Part shown: positions 893 through 47,918 of the stretch, piece after piece
How the letters are laid out: the number at the start of each line of letters is the position of its first letter
How positions within the stretch are numbered: position 1 is the stretch's first letter
NCBI GenBank assembly: GCA_024401455.1
Contig: JAKSLA010000020.1
Coordinates: 1-49,137 of the forward strand
Direction of reading: 5' to 3'
DNA length: 49,137 bases
Origin: Paludibacteraceae bacterium
GTDB taxonomy: Bacteria; Bacteroidota; Bacteroidia; Bacteroidales; Paludibacteraceae
Made by a program: the position numbers and the translations under genes
Notes under the pieces: generated by a model
Told to the model about the DNA's origin: nothing
Seen by the model: only the letters and a program-made list of their open reading frames with translations
The model's database searches: none

Positions 893-922
893 TTGGATTA
901 TAAGAAAAACAACGTATATTTG
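893..922 (+). promoter_or_regulatory. Bacteroidetes-type promoter of the 28-aa peptide
   Basis: TTG at 893-895 and TATATTTG at 915-922 are separated by 19 bases, matching the Bacteroidetes primary-sigma promoter. The leader from the box to the ATG is 49 bases, the same length as in the second copy at 31428-31476. Confidence 0.7.
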
Positions 923-971
923 TACTGTCTAAAAGACAATAACGAATATTAACCGAATAAATATTAAGATT

Positions 972-1058
972 ATGGCAGCAGCAGTTATTTTTTGCACAGA
1001 GATTGCAGTAGCAATGGCAGTAAAGGTTTGGAACGTCAAGGACGCTCTCAGTAAGTAA
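972..1058 (+). CDS. 28-residue hydrophobic peptide, copy 1
   Basis: The ORF encodes 28 residues: about 16 mostly hydrophobic residues, then a polar, lysine-containing tail that ends VAMAVKVWNVKDALSK. The evidence that it is a gene is its paralogue at 31341-31427: the last 16 residues are identical, the codon differences in this part are mostly synonymous, and promoter, leader and terminator are also conserved. I do not recognise the family. Size and layout resemble small single-pass membrane peptides, including type I toxins, but no antisense RNA is visible, so function is open. Confidence 0.65.
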   Translation: MAAAVIFCTEIAVAMAVKVWNVKDALSK

Positions 1059-1082
1059 CCCTCAATCACATCTTATGAATCT

Positions 1083-1118
1083 ATGAATCGACAGCAGAAT
1101 TTTAAATGCCGACTATAG
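1083..1118 (+). CDS. Possible 11-residue basic micro-ORF
   Basis: ATG to TAG encodes MNRQQNFKCRL, 24 bases after the 28-aa peptide. The stop codon overlaps the base of the terminator hairpin. The paralogous cassette has a similarly placed ORF (MKRRQRPQGLSRM) that ends at the same place in its hairpin. Two examples are not enough to prove translation. Confidence 0.25.
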   Translation: MNRQQNFKCRL

Positions 1119-1155
1119 CCTCGATATCGACACAGTTGATCATCGAGGCTTTTTG
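1117..1155 (+). terminator. Terminator of peptide cassette copy 1
   Basis: Outer stem AGCCTCGAT (1117-1125) with ATCGAGGCT (1142-1150), inner stem ATCGAC with GTTGAT around an ACA loop, one bulged C at 1141, then a T-run. The same architecture with base-pair-preserving changes occurs in copy 2. Confidence 0.8.
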
Positions 1156-12520: not shown

Positions 12521-15500
12521 ATGTCGAATAAAAATGACTTAAGCGGAGCCTATATCGTGCTGGACGGTGCACTGTTTACTTGCAATCAAGGTGCAACCCC
12601 CAATTCAATCGTGGCAACGAACAAAGAAAAAGTTTATGCACAAAATAAGAAGGTGATAACGACAGAAGATATCACTTTCCAAACTCCCTCGCTCACTTTC
12701 GGAACTTGCTTGCTGAGCACAAACAAACAAGCCGGTCAGCCTTGCGTATATGCCAATGGAGAATGGGACAAAAAAAGTTGCTACGACGAGAAGATCGTAC
12801 TGGACAGCAGCAAAATGTACTGCTCCGCCTGCACCCCCCAAGGTGGAGAAATCACCTGCTTATACCACGGTCAGCAATGCTCCGTCTCGGCTACCGACTT
12901 CGCAAATTTTGAAATAGAATCGGCAGTCTTATTTAATAGCCTCTTGCCTTTTAATGAGTTGGAAAATAAAAAAAGCGAAAAGACAAGCAAGAAGCCCTCA
13001 TTCTCTGTCAACTCCATCGATCTGACTCGTATCAAGAAGAGCGAAAACACCAACATCCCCATTGCCCAAGAAGAGAAAAATCCCAAACATATCCGCCCAA
13101 ACGAAAAACTTATACTTGAGGCTAAAAGGAATTCGAAGGTCAGTTTGGAAGGAGAACCCGTCAGTTGGATCATATTCCAGAAAGAGATCATTAAGGCAAG
13201 CACACCGAAAGGTAAACCGCAAACAAAAATCAAGAACCTAAAGATATATCCTAAAGTCGGCACCCCATTCACCATACAACTGGCCAAAACAGGCAAATAC
13301 TACATTGAAGCTATCGGCAATGGCAATGATTACAAATCATTGAAATCATATTACCAGATGCAAAAAAGCCTTGCTGAGAACGAATGGATCGTGAATAAGG
13401 AGAGAATCCCTTTGGATGCGAAATGTTGCAAGGAAATTGAAGTTTGTGCAAATGATATTGTCAGACTGTCTCCACAAGGAGACTATCCGAAAGTCAACTC
13501 ATCATCAACCTCGGCTTGGGATCTGAAAGATGCCAAGAAGCCACTCTTTCTCCGTGCGGAAAACTTCCAAAAGAGTTTGCCCTCCAATAGCATCTCATTC
13601 GTTGTCAAGCAGAACGAGCCTTTTGTGTTGAAAGTAGATACTATCTTTGAACTGGCCCATGACGAGTTCCTAACCGTTCATTTCAACAATATTTTGTTGA
13701 CCTACATGCTCAACAAAAATGCAAGCACGTCCTTCTACTCGTTCAACCCTCTAACGAAGTTATTCACCCTAAAAGGGCTCAACTCAGGCGATTATAGAAT
13801 CCGCTTCGAACTGAACTGCTTGAACGCCTCCTCCATCTTCAAACCCAAGACATTAGGCGTCGGCGGATTGAGAATCCATTGCATCTCCGACTTCCTTGAC
13901 ATAAAGACCTCCAGCGGAGAGACGGAAAACCCGCAAAACATACGTCCGGGCGATTCGCTCCAATTCAAGGCGGATAGCAGCAAATGCAAGATTGACAGTT
14001 CCAAAATTGAATGGAGTTGGGGCAAAGCGATTCCAAAAAACAATAAAAAGAAACCCAATAAGGCAAAGAAGGAGCCTGAACCAGAACCCGTAAGGACAAC
14101 TAAAAAGTGCGATAAACTGATTATAAATTCCGAAAAGGAAGAGTATAGATTACGGGTAGATGCTTGCATTGAAGACCCCAATTTCCTATTTCAAGACATG
14201 AATGGAGAAAAGGATTTGGAGACAGCAAAGAAATGGTCTTTTGAATGCAATGTCATAAACAACAGGATAAAGCGGATATGGCTCGACGCAGAAGAGGCAT
14301 TTGTGGGCATGACCTACAATTTGTACACAGAATACCTCTACCCCGATTATATTCCTACGAAAGATGGTGAGATCAAAGGTTCGCTAAACGACGAAGTGTT
14401 GACAATGGAGAACGGCAAACAATCGCTCGTTTTCGAAAATCCCGGCAAGCAACAAATATCACTGACGATGGGAAACACAGAGACAGTGACAGAGGAGTTT
14501 GACGTGTACGACATAACGGTTGAAGAGTGGGTTTTCCTCGATTCGGAACAACATATCATCAAGCAGGTTGGCTTCGGAACGAAGTTCCAACTCTCCATCT
14601 ACATACCAGCCTTCAAGTACTTGACAGAAAAGGAGCGCTCAGACATCCGGTTGGAGTTATGGGACGAACGTACGGGTAAGAAATTGGAGACTGACGCATT
14701 GCACAATGTGATGATGGACGATAAGGGCCATATCAATGCCGAACTGACGGGATATGACCTTTCCGAAAGCACGGACGACATCACCCTCTCATGTGCCTTG
14801 GTAAACCTTCCTTATCATGTCAGCGGCCTCAACGACGAGAAGCACAACGGGCATTTCTTCTATGCTAAAGCCAAGAAACTCATCATCAGTGAAAAGGAGT
14901 ACATCAACGGCTTTTTCGCAGGAAGTACGGGCAATCCACAAAAGTCCATCCTACGCTACGGAATGGAGGCAAAGATAGTTTTGTACATGCACAATCTCAG
15001 TCAAAGCAAGATAGAGAACTGCACACTACAACTAGTGGAAAATGACGATTCGGACGACTTGAAGGATACGCTCATCTGGAAAAGTGACATTCCGAAGCCC
15101 AATGACGACGGTCGAGTAGAAATTGTCATTCCAGAAAATATCATCAATGAAGCCGACCACAATGCCGAGACGCCCAGAATCCCACGCCTCTTCTATTTTA
15201 AAGTAGTCTATCACAACCCCATTACGGAGGAATTGTCGCTGCTCCTCGCCTATCCGGCACAAAAAATCGGCGACGATTTCAAGATCGAACTCAATGAAGA
15301 GTCCGTCCAAAAATTAAACTGCAATTACTTTTGGCAGTTGAAGTATGTACCCAATGATGAAGGAGAATTGAACGATGCCATATCTGGACGAGCCCTTTCC
15401 GTCATTGGTGAGGAACTCAAACTGGGCGAAGGCCGAGTACGACGATCGGGAGACTGCCCGCGTTGCAACGAAGAGGCAAAAGAGATGTATGCTAAAGTGA

Positions 15501-16939
15501 TGAGTATAAATCGATTTAATACAGATGAAGAGACCCAACAACGTGTCAAAACAATCTGTGAAACTTATACGAAATATATGGATCGTTTCTATATGAACAC
15601 ATGCTGGATCAAAGCCCACTACTTCGCACAAATATCCGTGGAATCTGGGGCAAATTTAAAATGCAACCCCGAAAACATGAATTACACAAGAGAAAGATTG
15701 GAAGAAGTCTTTAAGAATAGGTTATTCTACACAGATGCAAATGGGCAACAAAATTACCGCGCTGGGATGAAGGAAAAGATTGATGCAATTTACCAATTGC
15801 CAAGCGACCCTAATAACCTATCCAACCAAAGGGCCAAAGCAATTGCCAACTTCATCTATTTCGGAGTAAACGGCAACGGCACAGATAAAGACAGTAAAGA
15901 TGGCTGGATATATAGAGGTGGTGGTATGATCCAACTTACTGGGAAAAGTGTATATAATGGGACGGAAAGAGCCATCGAAGCTTTTCTTGGGAAGAAGATT
16001 TCTTTAGGCGGGGCTGACAAATTAAGTGCTGACGTAGAACTTTCCACAATAGCATCCATGGTTTATCTTGCCAAAAGGAAAATACATCTCAGAAAATTCA
16101 CAGAGAATAAGAATGGGATTAAAAAAATGTATTTCATAGCCAATGGCCAAAATAACGAATATTTTGTCAGTAAATTGGTTGGTTCGGAACATGCTAAAAA
16201 CCAAAACGGCAAAACCAACTTCGATTTAAAACAAGACTTCTTTGATGAATTTTATAAAGCATTTCAGACAAACAAATGTCAATGGGACGAAGAGTTTAAG
16301 GAAGAAGAGGATAATGTCAACATCTATCGCATAGACTTGGATGAGTTCTCATTATACAAATACCAAGAGAATAAAAATAGCGATGAATTCATTTATAAAA
16401 TTTATAACCATGGGAAGAAAGTATGCGAAGATTATCATTTTACGCAAGTATTACTGCCCAAAAGAGGCATAAAGTTGATGCCTTTCCCTGAAAGCGGACC
16501 CAACTGGGGAAGATATGGTGCAAGGGACAAAGGTGGCGACAATTTTGTAAGTGAAACAACGTGTGCTTGCCTGTTAGGCCTCTTCTACTCTCTGCCCCTC
16601 AACGGCCATGATGAAAAGTATTTCTATGACGATATTACAATCTACTCCATAGACAATACCCATAGAGGACACCGGTCGGGAAATGATATTGATGTTAGAT
16701 ACCCTAATGGGACACAGCAACCAGTGCGTTTTTGGGGCGAAACCATTCAACAATGTTTTAATGGCAACAAAGCAAAGTTTATTGCTCATTTGGAGAGTTT
16801 TGTGAGAATAGCCAGAAAATGGTGTTTTGTCAATAATTTTACACACGAAGAAGTTGCTGGAACCACAAAAGCAAAAAGTCATGAACACCACATTCATTTA
16901 GGAAATAAATACTACGAAAGATATATTAAAAATGGATAA
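12521..16939 (+). CDS. PAAR-like (DUF4280) multidomain peptidoglycan-targeting effector
   Basis: This is a 1472-residue protein without signal peptide. Residues about 8-118 resemble DUF4280, the PAAR-like tip domain (GAxxxCxxG...P, then PSLTFGTCL, SKMYCS and GGEITCLYHGQQ). A long beta-rich middle follows, with a Lys/Pro linker near 505-535. Residues about 1025-1190 look like a GH19/lysozyme-type domain: AQISVESG with catalytic-type E1041 and RGGGMIQLTG at 1132-1141. The C-terminus resembles a LAS metallopeptidase (MepA/M15): HRSGNDID at 1384-1391 (H-x6-D) and HEHHIHLG at 1454-1461. I infer a type VI-delivered effector that cuts peptidoglycan glycan and peptide bonds. Three lipoprotein genes follow directly. 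No T6SS structural genes are in the window. Confidence 0.75.
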   Translation: MSNKNDLSGAYIVLDGALFTCNQGATPNSIVATNKEKVYAQNKKVITTEDITFQTPSLTFGTCLLSTNKQAGQPCVYANGEWDKKSCYDEKIVLDSSKMYCSACTPQGGEITCLYHGQQCSVSATDFANFEIESAVLFNSLLPFNELENKKSEKTSKKPSFSVNSIDLTRIKKSENTNIPIAQEEKNPKHIRPNEKLILEAKRNSKVSLEGEPVSWIIFQKEIIKASTPKGKPQTKIKNLKIYPKVGTPFTIQLAKTGKYYIEAIGNGNDYKSLKSYYQMQKSLAENEWIVNKERIPLDAKCCKEIEVCANDIVRLSPQGDYPKVNSSSTSAWDLKDAKKPLFLRAENFQKSLPSNSISFVVKQNEPFVLKVDTIFELAHDEFLTVHFNNILLTYMLNKNASTSFYSFNPLTKLFTLKGLNSGDYRIRFELNCLNASSIFKPKTLGVGGLRIHCISDFLDIKTSSGETENPQNIRPGDSLQFKADSSKCKIDSSKIEWSWGKAIPKNNKKKPNKAKKEPEPEPVRTTKKCDKLIINSEKEEYRLRVDACIEDPNFLFQDMNGEKDLETAKKWSFECNVINNRIKRIWLDAEEAFVGMTYNLYTEYLYPDYIPTKDGEIKGSLNDEVLTMENGKQSLVFENPGKQQISLTMGNTETVTEEFDVYDITVEEWVFLDSEQHIIKQVGFGTKFQLSIYIPAFKYLTEKERSDIRLELWDERTGKKLETDALHNVMMDDKGHINAELTGYDLSESTDDITLSCALVNLPYHVSGLNDEKHNGHFFYAKAKKLIISEKEYINGFFAGSTGNPQKSILRYGMEAKIVLYMHNLSQSKIENCTLQLVENDDSDDLKDTLIWKSDIPKPNDDGRVEIVIPENIINEADHNAETPRIPRLFYFKVVYHNPITEELSLLLAYPAQKIGDDFKIELNEESVQKLNCNYFWQLKYVPNDEGELNDAISGRALSVIGEELKLGEGRVRRSGDCPRCNEEAKEMYAKVMSINRFNTDEETQQRVKTICETYTKYMDRFYMNTCWIKAHYFAQISVESGANLKCNPENMNYTRERLEEVFKNRLFYTDANGQQNYRAGMKEKIDAIYQLPSDPNNLSNQRAKAIANFIYFGVNGNGTDKDSKDGWIYRGGGMIQLTGKSVYNGTERAIEAFLGKKISLGGADKLSADVELSTIASMVYLAKRKIHLRKFTENKNGIKKMYFIANGQNNEYFVSKLVGSEHAKNQNGKTNFDLKQDFFDEFYKAFQTNKCQWDEEFKEEEDNVNIYRIDLDEFSLYKYQENKNSDEFIYKIYNHGKKVCEDYHFTQVLLPKRGIKLMPFPESGPNWGRYGARDKGGDNFVSETTCACLLGLFYSLPLNGHDEKYFYDDITIYSIDNTHRGHRSGNDIDVRYPNGTQQPVRFWGETIQQCFNGNKAKFIAHLESFVRIARKWCFVNNFTHEEVAGTTKAKSHEHHIHLGNKYYERYIKNG

Positions 16940-18269
16940 ACTAATTTATACACTGCTAATAGTTATTGGCTGCTGCAACTGCGCAGAAGAGAAAAAAAAA
17001 GTAAAAGAGAACCCAAATGAAATAACAATGACAACCACAAAGGTAGAATCGGAAAGAAATAGTTTGACCGATGCTCAACAAAGCCTCATACAAAAACACA
17101 TCCAACTTAGATACGACACAACGGTTAACAATGAAGTCCCATATTATTCAAAAGATGTTTTTACGGCTAAGGAATTTGATGCTGAAATAGAATTGAGTTC
17201 ACAATACTACAACCTTAGAAATCTGCAGATATCTGACGAAAAATTCGACAGACGACTAAAGGAAGTCTTTGGTTATGATAAAGTTAGAGACTTCCCCAAA
17301 GATATGCTATGGCGTGATTTTAGCATAAACACTGTCATTGTAGCTCAACCAGAGGATTTCGAAAATTTTTGGATTTCGAAATCCTCCAAAACTATCATGC
17401 ATGATAACTTGGTAGACATTCGGTTTGACGATAACGATAATTATATCCCCAAAGCCTCCCTCAGCGACTCCACTGGGGCAAACTTCACTTGTTGCCATGA
17501 TGAATGGAAAATATCCAAAATCGACCTCTACTATCATTGGAACAACTACATCTTCAACGAGAGCAAGGCCTCAAGAGTTTGGTTGCTCAAGAACGACATC
17601 TACTTCATGACTCATTTGATTACAAATTTTGGATACGATGGCGACATGGAACTCAACAAAGCGCTTTTGGGCGATATCATAGATGGATTCAACTATTCGC
17701 TACATGACCAACCTTTCTCTGTGGTTCACTTCTATCCCGAAGGAAGAATAAAGATCATGGATGGCTTGCTGAAAACAATGGAGGAACTCTCTACGGCTGA
17801 AAATTCTGAATATTTTTATTGGGCTGAAAATGAACTATATAAATATGCTCCGCCTGCTATATACGATTATTATCCGACATTTAAAGATAACAACGATGAG
17901 GACAACGAGGAACATGTTCCCTCTCATGGAGAAGAGCTCACGTTCTCCCGAGAATTAACATTTAAGGAGAGTTGCGAGGTCATCGCCCACATCACCAACT
18001 ACATCTATCCTGTCTATTTAAAATTCATAGACGGAAATATTGATTATGGCGATGTGCGCATGCATGCCATCGGTGTGGATATCCCCAATAGCTTTTGGAA
18101 TGTCATCTTCCGTAGCCACGAAGTGTTTTATGAAATCGAAAGAAACAACGGATATGGCCTGCCCAACATGCAACAACTCCTCGCTTCCATAAAGAACGAC
18201 CCTCGTTTCTATAATGACAAAGGTGTTCTTGCCCCATGGGATTTTGAATACCCTAATGCAGATGAATAA
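16932..18269 (+). CDS. Lipoprotein, candidate immunity protein 1
   Basis: The 445-residue protein has a short lipoprotein signal (MDKLIYTLLIVIG then CCNC), so it should sit in the periplasm. The mature part is acidic and aromatic-rich, with no domain I recognise. Its ATG overlaps the end of the effector gene by eight bases, so both are made together, as expected for an effector/immunity pair. The periplasmic location fits a peptidoglycan-attacking toxin. It is not clearly similar to the next two genes, except that its last codons (ADE then TAA) and the 12-base spacer after them recur after both duplicates. Confidence 0.6.
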   Translation: MDKLIYTLLIVIGCCNCAEEKKKVKENPNEITMTTTKVESERNSLTDAQQSLIQKHIQLRYDTTVNNEVPYYSKDVFTAKEFDAEIELSSQYYNLRNLQISDEKFDRRLKEVFGYDKVRDFPKDMLWRDFSINTVIVAQPEDFENFWISKSSKTIMHDNLVDIRFDDNDNYIPKASLSDSTGANFTCCHDEWKISKIDLYYHWNNYIFNESKASRVWLLKNDIYFMTHLITNFGYDGDMELNKALLGDIIDGFNYSLHDQPFSVVHFYPEGRIKIMDGLLKTMEELSTAENSEYFYWAENELYKYAPPAIYDYYPTFKDNNDEDNEEHVPSHGEELTFSRELTFKESCEVIAHITNYIYPVYLKFIDGNIDYGDVRMHAIGVDIPNSFWNVIFRSHEVFYEIERNNGYGLPNMQQLLASIKNDPRFYNDKGVLAPWDFEYPNADE

Positions 18270-18281
18270 TTTAGAAATGCT

Positions 18282-19238
18282 ATGCAGCTACTAAAGAAAT
18301 TTACAACACTTGTCGGAATCGTCTTATTGTCAATAAGTTGTAACGACTCAAACAAAGAATGTTCGCAGTCACAATCAGGAGAAGAATATGCAAAGAATGA
18401 GGCAAGTCCGACCATCGTACATTCTGCAAATGAGTTCCCGAACGAATGGTGGCAACTACACATCGAAGGTAATGACACCACCGTTCACCCCTACAAGTAT
18501 ATTGTCGTTTCGAACGATACTATATTTTGTTATGATGATATGGATTACGATGTACGACTAATCTGTAAAGACCAAAAAAGTAACGATAAACGTATTATAG
18601 AGGTTATAGCAAACGATGAAAAATATTGCTATGAGGCAACCCTCATCGACGAAAATTGTTGCCGGTGGAAAGTCCCAAGTTATTGGTACGAAGAGGGAAA
18701 TGGTATCTATACCAACGACAAATCCCGCTACAAAACCTACAATTTCGGGATCGACACCATTTACCAAAACATTGGAATTGAGAAGGTGGAGGCTAAATGG
18801 TGGGGCGCATACGAATTTATGAAAACCATCTATATTAATGATACAGAGCCTAAAGACACCTACGATCGGTATTATAGGGTTTTTATTGATTCGGCACTTT
18901 TTGTATTCGAAAATCGCCATCCTTATTATGATGACCTTTTCTCTCTTTATGTGTTTAATGAAAGTGAAAATAGGTTACAATTCACCCAAGGTTTTAATGA
19001 CGGTGTTCCAAAAGACACTTGTCTCGAAGTTCTTTTTGACGGAGAAGACTATTATGTTGATTGTCAATTCTTTACAAGCGACATCCCTTCCTTGACAAAA
19101 TTTTCCAAAAAGCAAGTTTATCGGGAATATATATACTTTTTAAGGGATAAATTTAAATACCAATACGCCAAGAAAATTCCTCATCGAGATGGGGAATACC
19201 TTGAATTGCCATTCATTGAAAGGGATGAGGAGGATTGA
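18282..19238 (+). CDS. Lipoprotein, candidate immunity protein 2 (duplicate A)
   Basis: The 318-residue protein has a lipoprotein signal ending SISC (Cys near residue 20). Residues about 10-172 are almost identical to the next gene, while residues 173-300 have diverged, and the last 20 are conserved again. No known domain is visible. The gene stops at TGA (19236-19238), but the frame continues with WDETLWKEVIADE to a TAA at 19278-19280, suggesting that an ancestral gene was 14 codons longer. It follows candidate 1 by 12 bases. An immunity role is inferred from position and export. Confidence 0.6.
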   Translation: MQLLKKFTTLVGIVLLSISCNDSNKECSQSQSGEEYAKNEASPTIVHSANEFPNEWWQLHIEGNDTTVHPYKYIVVSNDTIFCYDDMDYDVRLICKDQKSNDKRIIEVIANDEKYCYEATLIDENCCRWKVPSYWYEEGNGIYTNDKSRYKTYNFGIDTIYQNIGIEKVEAKWWGAYEFMKTIYINDTEPKDTYDRYYRVFIDSALFVFENRHPYYDDLFSLYVFNESENRLQFTQGFNDGVPKDTCLEVLFDGEDYYVDCQFFTSDIPSLTKFSKKQVYREYIYFLRDKFKYQYAKKIPHRDGEYLELPFIERDEED

Positions 19239-20320
19239 TGGGACGAAACGCTTTGGAAAGAGGTTATTGCCGATGAATAAATTAAAAATACTATGCGATT
19301 AAAGGAACTTATAGCACTTGTCGGAATCGTCTTATTGTCAATAAGTTGTAACGACTCAAACAAAGAATGTTCGCAGTCACAATCAGGAGAAGAATATGCA
19401 AAGAATGAGGCAAGTCCGACCATCGTACATTCTGCAAATGAGTTCCCGAACGAATGGTGGCAACTACACATCGAAGGTAATGACACCACCGTTCACCCCT
19501 ACAAGTATATTGTCGTTTCGAACGATACTATATTTTGTTATGATGATATGGATTACGATGTACGACTAATCTGTAAAGACCAAAAAAGTAACGATAAACG
19601 TATTATAGAGGTTATAGCAAACGATGAAAAATATTGCTATGAGGCAACCCTCATCGACGAAAATTGTTGCCAGTGGAAAGTCCCAAGTTATTGGTACGAA
19701 GAGGGAAATGGTATCTACACCAACGACAGATCTCGCTACAAAACCTACAATTTCGGGATCGACACCATTTACCAAAACATTGGAATCGAGAAGGTGGATG
19801 CTAAATGGAATGGTTTGTATGAAATTTTCAAGACATTTTATATTGACGACACAGAACCAAGGGACTCCTTTTATCGATATTATAAGCTTTTTGTGGATTC
19901 AGCACTATTCATATTAGAAAATCGACAAACTCATTATTATGATTATTATCCTCTTTACGTCTTTAGTGAAAGTAGTAATCTGTTGCAACTTACCCAAGGC
20001 TTTAATGATGACATTCCTAAAGATACTATTGAACTCTTTTTTGATGGGGACGATTATTATATCAGTTTGCGCTGCTTCTCAACAGACTTTCCATCACTAA
20101 CAAAAGCCTCTAAAGAGAAAACAGACCGAAAAGAAATACATTATTTGAGAGATTTACATAAATATAATTACGCCAAGAAAATCCCTCATCGAGATGGGAA
20201 ATACCTTGAATTGCCATTCATTGAAAGGGATGAGGAGGATTGATGGGACGAAACGCTTTGGAAAGAGGTTATTGCCGATGAATAAATTAAAAATACTATG
20301 CGATTAAAGGAACTTATAGC
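18307..20320 (+). repeat. Tandem duplication of the immunity lipoprotein unit (about 1 kb period)
   Basis: Near-identical blocks occur at 18307-18780 and 19315-19788. The tail block from TGA to the next gene start occurs at 19236-19316 and 20241-20320 with a 1005-base offset. Confidence 0.85.
19293..20243 (+). CDS. Lipoprotein, candidate immunity protein 3 (duplicate B)
   Basis: The 316-residue paralogue of the preceding gene has the same lipoprotein signal and shares about 470 nearly identical bases with it (18307-18780 against 19315-19788, offset 1008). The region from about KVDAKWNGLYE to ASKEKTDRKE is clearly different, the pattern seen when immunity paralogues specialise for different toxin variants, or after partial gene conversion. 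It also ends at a TGA followed by the same in-frame WDETLWKEVIADE tail and TAA. A truncated third start lies 12 bases after that TAA. Confidence 0.6.
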   Translation: MRLKELIALVGIVLLSISCNDSNKECSQSQSGEEYAKNEASPTIVHSANEFPNEWWQLHIEGNDTTVHPYKYIVVSNDTIFCYDDMDYDVRLICKDQKSNDKRIIEVIANDEKYCYEATLIDENCCQWKVPSYWYEEGNGIYTNDRSRYKTYNFGIDTIYQNIGIEKVDAKWNGLYEIFKTFYIDDTEPRDSFYRYYKLFVDSALFILENRQTHYYDYYPLYVFSESSNLLQLTQGFNDDIPKDTIELFFDGDDYYISLRCFSTDFPSLTKASKEKTDRKEIHYLRDLHKYNYAKKIPHRDGKYLELPFIERDEED

Positions 20321-31239: not shown

Positions 31240-31280
31240 TAAAAAAAGCCCCGACCATCAACCATGTTGATATCGAGGCT
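31240..31280 (-). terminator. Terminator of peptide cassette copy 2
   Basis: On the minus strand AGCCTCGAT-ATCAAC-ATG-GTTGAT-(bulge G)-GTCGGGGCT followed by a T-run. It has the same two-part stem, three-base loop and bulge as copy 1, with several differences that keep base pairing through G-U pairs. Confidence 0.8.
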
Positions 31281-31320
31281 ACATTCGTGATAGACCTTGC
31301 GGTCGCTGTCGTCGTTTCAT
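31279..31320 (-). CDS. Possible 13-residue basic micro-ORF
   Basis: MKRRQRPQGLSRM, ending with TAG at the base of the terminator hairpin as in copy 1. AAAGGAG lies eight bases upstream of the ATG; Shine-Dalgarno sites matter little in Bacteroidetes, so this adds limited support. Confidence 0.25.
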   Translation of the reverse strand: MKRRQRPQGLSRM

Positions 31321-31340: not shown

Positions 31341-31427
31341 TTACTTACTGAGAGCGTCCTTAACGTTCCAAACCTTCACTGCCATTGCAACTGAAACTAC
31401 TGCGCAAAAGATATAAGCTATTGTCAT
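31341..31427 (-). CDS. 28-residue hydrophobic peptide, copy 2
   Basis: The peptide MTIAYIFCAVVSVAMAVKVW plus NVKDALSK has the same length and the same last 16 residues as copy 1 at 972. In that part the nucleotide differences are nearly all at third codon positions, which points to selection on the protein. The first 12 residues differ but stay hydrophobic and keep IFC at about the same place. It has its own promoter, leader and terminator. Function unknown; a small membrane peptide is likely. Confidence 0.65.
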   Translation of the reverse strand: MTIAYIFCAVVSVAMAVKVWNVKDALSK

Positions 31428-31476
31428 AATCGTAAATATTTATTCTGTTAATATTCATTATTTCCTTATCACACTG

Positions 31477-31508
31477 CAAATATATGCACGATTTTTAATA
31501 TAGCAAAA
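31477..31508 (-). promoter_or_regulatory. Promoter of peptide cassette copy 2
   Basis: On the minus strand TTTG (31504-31507), a 19-base spacer and TATATTTG (31477-31484). The leader is 49 bases long, as in copy 1, and the half next to the ATG is nearly identical. DNA from 31509 to 31673 is AT-rich with no gene I can see. Confidence 0.7.
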
Positions 31509-41724: not shown

Positions 41725-41743
41725 CAAAGAAAAAATCAAGGCC

Positions 41744-42445
41744 TTATTTCTCAAGGCCCGCAGGCTTATCTTTGACTGCCCTCACCGACTGCCCGACGTA
41801 GCGTTCAATTCGGCGTATGAGGCTACTGTTGGCGCTAAATCCATAGTAGTAAGCCATCGGTGCCGCATAAGCGCTTATGGTAGCCGTCCAGTAGTAACCC
41901 ATTTTAGCACGTGTCTCGCTGTCCTTCTTCTGCTCTGCACTACACCCGGCCGCAGGCAAGAAGATTGTTCGGCCATTGGTTTTACTGGTCCCGATAAACC
42001 CTTCAATCCCCGTACGCTCATAATCGTAAGTCCACTCCCATTGGCAACCCTCGATGAGTTCAATCATCTCCTTGCGCTTCGGCATTCGCCAGCCGTTGCC
42101 CCAAAGTTGCGTAGCGACATCGTCTTCCGGAAGCAAATCCATAATGGAATCCACCACTCCGAATTTTTCCTTGTTACAATATTTTGTCAATGAACTACCA
42201 AAATGTTTATAGTTCACCCATGCAAAGCCATTCTTCGAGACCGTCTCACCCCATGCATACAACTTGCCATAAGGCTCCTGCTGAGAAGTTCCGACGTTGG
42301 CTTTTGCCCAAAGAACCGAGAGCCCCAAATCCACATACTCGTGATTTTGTGTCGCCGACGCCTCCTTCTTCTGTTTGTCAGACGCGACTGCAGCCGTGCA
42401 AGCCATAGCAAAAAAAGCCAATATTGAAATTAATACTTTTCTCAT
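41744..42445 (-). CDS. Exported FISUMP-like domain protein
   Basis: The 233-residue protein has a signal peptide (MRKVLISILAFFAMACTAAV). The mature part has the fibrobacter-succinogenes-paralogous-domain pattern common in Bacteroidales: HEYVDLGLSVLWAKANVG, YGKLYAWGET, GNGWRMPKRKEMIELIEGC, FLPAAGCS and MGYYWTAT. It is probably a surface or periplasmic protein of unknown role. TATATTTG (minus strand, 42474-42481) lies 28 bases upstream. Confidence 0.75.
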   Translation of the reverse strand: MRKVLISILAFFAMACTAAVASDKQKKEASATQNHEYVDLGLSVLWAKANVGTSQQEPYGKLYAWGETVSKNGFAWVNYKHFGSSLTKYCNKEKFGVVDSIMDLLPEDDVATQLWGNGWRMPKRKEMIELIEGCQWEWTYDYERTGIEGFIGTSKTNGRTIFLPAAGCSAEQKKDSETRAKMGYYWTATISAYAAPMAYYYGFSANSSLIRRIERYVGQSVRAVKDKPAGLEK

Positions 42446-46252: not shown

Positions 46253-46730
46253 CAAGTGACATTCTCCTTATTGGGATCGTTCTTGTAGAACTCTCTCGCC
46301 AATTTGCGTTCAACAATTAGAAATCACAACTCTTCCAGCACGCCACTTTACGGGTTTTCTCATCAAATACAATGCCGACGGAATGAACCTCCTCGCTTTC
46401 ATTTTTGTATTTTTCCGCATAGCCTTTCGACTTCGCCTGCTCCAACGCAGACTCAAGCAGTTCCTTCTTTTTCGACTCGGGGTCAACCTCATCTTTACCC
46501 ATCATCTTAAGTTCAAATACAAGAGCCATCTTCGCTGTTTGAGCCACGATATCAACACGTTGGCTCGCCTCCATGATCTCGCACTGGTTTGGTATGCCAA
46601 ACAAGCAGAATAAAGTGCGGAGGTGATTGCGGAAATAACCCTCCGTGATTTCTCCCGCATTCTCGTATGGAATGCCAGAGAAGAAATTGCACACCTTATC
46701 CATGAAGGCATTGACATCCTGGTTGTTAAG
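46253..46730. repeat. Near-identical duplicated block, copy 1 (3' part of ATPase gene)
   Basis: About 450 bases match 48293-48770 at a constant offset of 2040, with a single base difference noticed (46656 C against 48696 T). Outside this block the two genes differ throughout. Confidence 0.9.
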
Positions 46731-47918
46731 ATCGTCTGACAAAGAAATCAACAATGGATTAAGAGAGAAATTAGAGTTTCTCTTTAGACTAAGAATGTTT
46801 TTATACCAACTGTCGCGAATCTCAATATTAGGGAAATCGTATCTTATAATCCACTTCGTAGGGGAATATTTTTTCCATTCAGCAATGGATAGATATCCTG
46901 TCTGGAAAGCGACACTTTGTAATTTCAAATCGTCTAAGTCGTATTTATAATCATTCTCATCCAACATCCACTGCTGGGTGATGTCATTCAACTCAAATGG
47001 ATTGTTTCTTACCATATTTAGCAAAAAACGAGGCGTTCCTGTCGCTATCCAATAATTGTCAAATCTTTTGTTTACGAATAATTTTCCAACTGACACAGGA
47101 TTATAGACAGACTCACATCTGCTGACGAATCTCATTCCATTGTAGTATAGCTTCGTATACGAGAGAAACTCGTCACGACTCATCTCCATTTTCTTTGCCA
47201 AATAATCTATATGTTCAGCAAAGTTATGACGAAGTTCATCTTCTGTATATCCCAACAAAGTCGCATAATCCTCATTCCTTGTCAAATCCGTAGGATTGTT
47301 GGCTCCAGAGAAAAGCGAGACATGAGCGAATTTTGTGACTCCTGTGATGAATACAAAACGCTCCTTGTCGTTAGCGGATTTCAATCTCTGATAAAAGTCA
47401 GCCATCAATTCAACCACCTCCTTTGAGTATGGCTTGAACATGGAATCAAGAATAGGCTTGTCGTATTCGTCGATAAGGACAACCACATGCTTCTTATATT
47501 TTCTATAAACAGAATCAATAAGATTGTCAAACATAGTTGGCACATCGGAATCTGCAATTTCTACATCCAAATCTCTGCATGATTTGATCAACTGCATTTT
47601 CATCGCTGATTCAATAGTTCTGATTCCTTCATACGACGAGCCACTTGCCAAATCAAGATGGATCACTGGGTAAGTCTCCCACACATCAGGAGCGAGACGT
47701 TCAATCTCAAGACCTTTGAACAGATCCTTTTTGCCCTGGAAGAAAGCTTTGAAAGTGGAAAGCAACAGACTCTTGCCGAAACGACGTGGACGAGAGAGGA
47801 AAAAACTTTTAGTCTTTCCCATCACCATTTTTGCCACAAATGCCGTCTTGTCGACATATAGAGCATCACTTTTAATCAAATCCTCAAATGTGAATATATC
47901 CGTTGCAATTTCTTTCAT
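46317..47918 (-). CDS. AAA-ATPase-like / DUF1703 PD-(D/E)XK nuclease-domain protein
   Basis: The 533-residue protein has an N-terminal AAA_ATPase-like domain (PF09820-type): YVDKTAFVAKMV, Walker A-like RPRRFGKS at 43-50 and Walker B VVVLIDEYDKP at 145-155. The C-terminal DUF1703 nuclease domain carries D456, E469 and K471 in RVDIVAQ...LVFELKMMG. The family is abundant and expanded in Bacteroidales, often in many copies; it may be selfish or defensive. A -7-like TATCTTTG (minus strand, 47945-47952) lies 26 bases upstream. Its last ~400 bases are shared with a second copy at the window edge. Confidence 0.85.
   Translation of the reverse strand: MKEIATDIFTFEDLIKSDALYVDKTAFVAKMVMGKTKSFFLSRPRRFGKSLLLSTFKAFFQGKKDLFKGLEIERLAPDVWETYPVIHLDLASGSSYEGIRTIESAMKMQLIKSCRDLDVEIADSDVPTMFDNLIDSVYRKYKKHVVVLIDEYDKPILDSMFKPYSKEVVELMADFYQRLKSANDKERFVFITGVTKFAHVSLFSGANNPTDLTRNEDYATLLGYTEDELRHNFAEHIDYLAKKMEMSRDEFLSYTKLYYNGMRFVSRCESVYNPVSVGKLFVNKRFDNYWIATGTPRFLLNMVRNNPFELNDITQQWMLDENDYKYDLDDLKLQSVAFQTGYLSIAEWKKYSPTKWIIRYDFPNIEIRDSWYKNILSLKRNSNFSLNPLLISLSDDLNNQDVNAFMDKVCNFFSGIPYENAGEITEGYFRNHLRTLFCLFGIPNQCEIMEASQRVDIVAQTAKMALVFELKMMGKDEVDPESKKKELLESALEQAKSKGYAEKYKNESEEVHSVGIVFDEKTRKVACWKSCDF

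Follow-up and report, generated by a model that had tools for sequence, protein, structure and literature searches.

The window, by which we mean the whole 49,137-nt stretch of contig JAKSLA010000020.1 analysed here from a Paludibacteraceae bacterium, carries two copies of a compact transcription unit on opposite strands (Table 1). Copy 1 (locus A) is followed by a convergent LicD-family gene and copy 2 (locus B) is preceded by a gene for a polysaccharide deacetylase; another neighbour of the window copies encodes a 276-aa protein with no Pfam match above cut-off. The promoter with its 19-nt spacing, the 49-nt leader and the 28-aa ORF were present in both copies as the initial annotation had described them, and folding of both copies bore out its hairpin with a three-base loop and one bulge. 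However, its layout of one peptide plus a terminator had to be revised, as each cassette is polycistronic and includes a further, CGA-rich ORF (ORF2) that the annotation had overlooked. Elsewhere in the window, three ORFs with no match in Pfam (16932-20243) follow a 1472-aa protein with an N-terminal DUF4280 domain (12521-16939, plus strand), and an AAA-ATPase_like plus PDDEXK_9 protein is encoded at 46317-47918 (minus strand). Proteins with a DUF4280 domain are frequently associated with secreted polymorphic effectors.

Table 1. Features of the two cassette copies in the window.
Feature	Position	Strand	Description and basis
Copy 1 promoter	893..922	+	TTG 893-895, 19 nt, TATATTTG 915-922; fits the Bacteroides -7 consensus TAnnTTTG
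Copy 1 leader	923..971	+	49 nt, AT-rich; conserved in alignments
Copy 1 membrane peptide ORF	972..1058	+	ATG 972, 28 aa; homology, pN/pS, hydropathy
Copy 1 ORF2 (terminal micro-ORF)	1083..1118	+	11 aa, MNRQQNFKCRL; stop codon overlaps the start of the hairpin
Copy 1 terminator hairpin and T tract	1117..1154	+	Hairpin proper 1117-1150
Copy 2 promoter	31477..31506	-	TTG 31506-31504, 19 nt, TATATTTG 31484-31477
Copy 2 leader	31428..31476	-	49 nt; alignments
Copy 2 membrane peptide ORF	31341..31427	-	28 aa; homology, pN/pS
Copy 2 ORF2	31279..31320	-	13 aa, MKRRQRPQGLSRM; stop codon overlaps the start of the hairpin
Copy 2 terminator hairpin and T tract	31240..31280	-	Hairpin proper 31280-31247

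Within its own genome (3.27 Mb, 119 contigs, 90.3% complete, 5.28% contamination), the peptide was encoded at these two places only. The two copies matched each other at the DNA level with E = 4.9e-36 (75% over 240 nt), and the same search revealed no third partial copy, the next match after copy 2 reaching only E = 0.2. As previously noted, the last 16 residues of the two peptides are identical. The accompanying claim that the codons differ mostly at third positions held for this tail, where all three differences over the final 17 codons, counting the stop, fall at the third position, but not for the entire ORF, where the differences are distributed 6/3/6 by codon position. Because of this split, the pair alone is weak evidence for selection and the wider family provides the real test. 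In alignments, the end of the copy 2 ORF was closer to copy 1 than were its locus B orthologues, and gene conversion between the copies is possible; since the K-D-A-L motif also occurs at a third locus (locus C) and in genome G119, retention of an ancestral state explains the copy 2 end equally well.

Homologues beyond the genome of origin, which a real peptide was expected to have, were indeed found. The family consists of stand-alone micro-operons in Paludibacteraceae and was detected in 28 of 358 family genomes, representing three of 33 genera, after one (G048) of 29 genomes above a loose threshold had been discarded. This included four genomes from the genus of the window (g1), 16 from genus g27 and eight from genus g19. 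Other loose-threshold searches of Paludibacteraceae returned 8/200, 21/358 and 34/358 genomes, and all six genomes in a sample of g27 carried a cassette, each already counted among the 16. All four genomes examined from the window's genus encoded the peptide at two to five places each, with loci A and B present in every one of them and locus C in two (three tandem peptides in G003). Those relatives that bear a name are MAGs recovered from horse faeces, yak rumen and the reticulum of water buffalo. A scan of a contig database produced 144 candidates and seven loci, six of them labelled Paludibacteraceae and one Bacteroidales. Profile searches across the order, covering 393 genomes (profile A3) and 314 genomes (profile A6), gave no convincing match outside Paludibacteraceae; sensitivity is limited for peptides of 28 residues, so absence from other families is not proven by this result. 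Most of the order-wide matches inspected (L049-L051, judged by eye, L052, L053 and L108-L112) lay inside longer frames, and TAnnTTTG was absent from about -200 to +260 at L052, L053 and L108-L112, where L110 and L112 are short loci with uncertain anchoring. Seven loose matches (L023, L026, L028, L029, L031, L081 and L107) were attributed to chance, being within other frames or without cassette parts, and others (e.g. L025, L027, L030, L032-L035, L069, L076, L077, L079 and L080) came from genomes that failed the final search.

The anatomy of the cassette was examined across 34 tabulated examples. TAnnTTTG, the Bacteroides -7 consensus as given in the excerpt of PMC4747536, was present upstream in all 34 and lay 54-71 nt before the first peptide start in 33, a spacing counted after setting aside one upstream in-frame ATG of G158; in G098 the distance was 119 nt. 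Each cassette encodes one to three peptides in line, and two or three were found in 21/34. Two were typical of g27 (13/16 cassettes) and three of g19 (7/8), while a single cassette of ten in the window's genus had three. In L012 (1238-1584, G003:C17), three tandem peptide units, 130 nt apart, stand behind one promoter box, representing amplification within a cassette. Across 13 representative cassettes, TAAC occurred no more than 30 nt upstream of 21/26 peptide starts, compared with 3/21 other gene starts in the window.

Peptides of the family are ~23-38 residues long and consist of a single hydrophobic helix followed by a conserved Lys or Arg. Among 46 distinct peptides, the best 16-residue hydropathy was 1.9-2.8 with a moment of 0.04-0.33, the first K/R fell at residue 13-18, and the tails had hydrophobic moments of 0.08 to 0.46. 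A hydrophobic segment followed by positive charge was seen in 46/46, a pattern for which the ORF finder itself selected. The third tandem peptide of g19 (L067, L070-L075) stands apart from the other peptides in its Asn-rich tail, which terminates in NRI (e.g. KKLNNNNNHNQPNRI). Pooling five non-overlapping within-locus pairs (93.7 synonymous and 311.3 nonsynonymous sites), two of which involve tandem copies at locus C, gave 25 synonymous versus 16 nonsynonymous changes, equating to a pN/pS of 0.19 (Fisher test, P = 4e-8). Single pairs from loci A to C ranged from 0.11 to 0.39, whilst copy 1 versus copy 2 gave 0.44. Close g27 pairs differed by 0-3 synonymous and 1-3 nonsynonymous changes (ratio up to 0.63), too few for a test. 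Purifying selection on the peptides is thus supported where it is testable, and the earlier argument from synonymous changes stands for the family, though weakly for the pair of copies on which it had been based.

The initial annotation could not assign the peptide to a named family and this was borne out. Taking a curated cut-off or E of 0.001 as the criterion, 13 peptides compared with Pfam and NCBIfam gave nothing above cut-off (best E 0.028 and 0.041), and 26 peptides yielded no PADLOC system and a best PHROGs match of E 0.051; all matches were therefore below threshold, at E 0.028 or worse. Among the papers searched, represented mostly by the opening lines of their abstracts, none was recognised as describing the micro-operon family. 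KdpF, CydX, AcrZ and MgtS are small single-helix bacterial membrane proteins, and the cassette peptides share with them a length of under 50 aa, one hydrophobic helix and the lack of a signal peptide. They differ in that the cassettes have no constant adjacent partner and combine tandem paralogues with a terminal micro-ORF, and the peptides showed no relationship in Pfam, NCBIfam or the sequences of solved structures.

TisB, Ldr, Ibs, DinQ and ZorO are type I toxins, which the cassette peptides resemble in length, hydrophobicity, single helix and multiple paralogous copies. A type I toxin-antitoxin system, in which a membrane-depolarising hydrophobic toxin is silenced by an antisense RNA, would also suit the antisense TAnnTTTG boxes found in 9/16 g27 and 4/8 g19 cassettes (13/24 outside the window's genus), including one at +43 shared by seven g27 cassettes with an MVTAL- or MGTAL-type first peptide. 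However, the +43 box lies within coding codons, box positions vary between subgroups, and the same promoter-box scan found an antisense box in 0/10 cassettes of the window's genus. The computed folds of the two window transcripts were no more stable than those of shuffled sequences (z = -0.43 and -0.83), and their genome holds no third partial copy as a source of antisense RNA in trans. Many cassettes are polycistronic and syntenic within genera, and several tandem cistrons under one promoter would be unusual for such a system. The excerpt of PMC12390103, a 2025 paper, states that before its own cyanobacterial case the type I systems known had been confined to Proteobacteria, Firmicutes and Tenericutes. 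We regard this explanation as unlikely. Of the two classes suggested earlier, type I toxins and membrane regulators, the notion of a membrane peptide fits, but that of a type I toxin is not favoured, given the lack of antisense boxes in the window's genus and the ordinary folding of the window mRNAs.

Conservation was also observed outside the peptides, as alignments showed leader and hairpin sequence to be kept between loci and genera. Both window terminators fit AGCCYC-N5-30-GRGGCTTTT, for which shuffling gave an expectation of 0.03 per window and two matches in 1/100 shuffles. In four whole genomes, TAGCCTC...GRGGCTTTT was found only at cassettes (G000 2, G003 2, G102 1, G112 1), compared with 0, 0, 0 and 1 for the backward pattern. 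Among 17 g1/g27 hairpins (of 19 distinct), 98.7% of cells pair, and nine cells changed on both sides, a number reached by 0/500 shuffles, although eight of the nine represent a single g1/g27 difference. The covariation check proposed earlier gave a divided answer: three of five measures of pairing and covariation were higher than in any of the 500 shuffles, but the count of pairs with double-side change (two) was reached by 63/500. As the rows had been cut at the stem, covariation supports the view that the hairpin has been maintained, as would be required of any terminator.

The conserved leader and the cassette-specific, covarying hairpin raise the alternative of a dual-function or regulatory small RNA, in which leader, CGA tract and hairpin would be the product and the ORFs secondary. 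Against this, the peptides are under codon-level selection, the g19 hairpin has a different sequence from that of g1 and g27, and the window contains no Rfam family at gathering score, three matches around copy 1 having E values of 2.8-4.3. The CGA triplets bear on the same question, with 27 of 28 lying in the frame of ORF2 (13 ORF2), which favours a codon-level explanation over a frame-blind RNA motif. Taken together, an RNA product seems distinctly unlikely.

ORF2 is the last cistron, comprising 9-19 codons, and its stop abuts or enters the terminator stem; in the window, the TAG stop runs into the first stem bases (TAGCCTCGAT). Defined as at least nine codons ending at -1 to +8 relative to the start of the hairpin, ORF2 occurred at the hairpin in 20 of 21 ORF2-distinct cassettes (of 34) compared with 1.3 expected from spacer shuffling; as the 9-aa floor and position range were set post hoc and the cassettes are related, the associated probability is not to be taken literally. 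The exception was G098, whose hairpin lacks an ORF2. Spacers ranged from 31 to 79 nt across the three genera in which the arrangement is found. A stop within a terminator-like hairpin is also seen at an ordinary gene in the window (41739-41759, minus strand, stop at 41744), so the arrangement is not unique to ORF2. Of the twenty distinct ORF2 peptides, those of loci A and B and of most g27 cassettes are Arg/Lys-rich, with a net charge of +3 to +8. However, those at locus C are acidic (MDQQSDNDN and MDQQIEVNN, net -2 and -3), and a charge close to neutral (0 to +1) is seen in g19 and G119/G146; a basic-peptide role is therefore not universal.

Codon usage in ORF2 was strongly skewed. Across 13 cassettes, one per lineage, Arg was encoded by CGA in 27/45 instances (AGA 10, CGG 5, CGT 2, CGC 1), compared with 62/498 Arg codons in long window ORFs, where AGG and CGG are rarer still (binomial P = 6e-14, for lineages that are not fully independent). 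By genus, CGA accounted for 21/22 Arg codons in g1, 28/49 in g27 and 1/5 in g19. Where an inosine tRNA decodes it, CGA is translated slowly in the organisms studied, which gives rise to the idea of a slowly translated last cistron. An ORF2 with uncommon Arg codons that runs into a terminator would also suit attenuator leader peptides controlling a downstream gene. In 31 cassettes with enough flank (three of 34 had too little), the next ORF of at least 90 aa was on the same strand in 18, including 7/8 g19 cassettes (a common 125-126 aa gene) and 3/4 at locus B, and attenuation gained a little from this count. The remaining 13/31 are convergent, including both window copies and all three visible locus A cassettes, and the downstream gene differs between loci. 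We consider attenuation very unlikely.

Heterogeneity between loci was equally apparent in the wider neighbourhood. Immediate neighbours at loci A, B and C differ and no single gene adjoins all cassettes, although a TPR-type cluster is common to regions A and C several kb away. Within genera, clustering of flanks by tblastx or blastn identified a common upstream flank in 14/16 g27, 7/8 g19 and 4/4 locus B cassettes; locus A cassettes formed two upstream pairs and shared a downstream gene in 3/4, the fourth ending near a contig edge. Searches of viral contigs, plasmids and phages recovered no family member. This synteny, together with the empty mobile-element searches, makes the unit look self-contained and vertically inherited within genera.

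Export-type genes were found at some loci. MacB-like permease, ABC ATPase, HlyD and outer membrane efflux genes adjoin the locus C cassette of G002 (L042, 6220-10832), efflux protein and HlyD genes lie upstream of the G119 cassette (L044, 7911-10277), which RecQ also adjoins, and G146 has the same export clusters as these two. Such genes would suit a secreted peptide, and the possibility of leaderless multi-peptide bacteriocins or PSM-like secreted peptides gained a little from them. Like aureocin A70, garvicin KS and the phenol-soluble modulins, the cassettes encode tandem, short, leaderless paralogous peptides, and their length is similar to that of aureocin A70, which comprises four peptides of 30-31 aa with a net charge of +4 to +5 in the excerpt of PMC6131525. 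Unlike leaderless bacteriocins, the cassette peptides have a continuous hydrophobic segment and lower charge (1-5 K/R, up to 2 D/E), and no export or immunity gene is adjacent at window loci A and B, whose neighbours are of other kinds. Nor were export-type genes present within 6 kb of locus C in G003, and the cassettes are vertically conserved at fixed loci. A secreted product is accordingly very doubtful.

Direct support extends to the existence and homology of the cassettes, purifying selection on the peptides, the ORF2 excess, its codon bias and synteny. We interpret the cassette, with a rough probability of 0.53, as a vertically inherited, self-contained operon for membrane microproteins whose last cistron is a micro-ORF, often basic and slowly translated, a function that we infer from these features. 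Against this interpretation, the length and hydrophobicity of the peptides are also typical of type I toxins and leaderless bacteriocins. Judging from the consensus, a housekeeping-type Bacteroidota promoter would drive a short AT-rich mRNA, from which one to three paralogous peptides would be translated, using start regions that are separate but alike. Each peptide is predicted to form a hydrophobic helix of ~16 residues followed by the conserved Lys/Arg and a short, often amphipathic tail, which would face the cytoplasm by the positive-inside rule. The paralogues probably pack together or with a larger membrane protein, and may act as small structural or regulatory subunits. The CGA codons of ORF2 suggest slow translation, and ORF2 might serve as a basic partner peptide or as a cis element holding the last ribosome at the 3' hairpin.

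A more specific proposal, which we consider rather unlikely as a whole, is that the membrane-microprotein operon represents a two-part gene design, in which tandem membrane micropeptides are coupled to a micro-ORF rich in CGA and the ribosome translating this micro-ORF halts on the terminator stem. The speed of translating 9-19 codons would then set the 3' end of the mRNA, its read-through or its stability, or the cationic peptide would act with the membrane peptides.

Genes this small escape routine annotation. Three gut and rumen genera nevertheless keep them, mostly at fixed loci and with coding-level selection where testable. Should the membrane peptides prove to have a partner, they would represent a lineage-specific subunit absent from the family libraries searched. 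Finally, if ORF2 behaves as its codon usage implies, it would provide a naturally occurring example of a terminator-linked micro-ORF that slows the ribosome.
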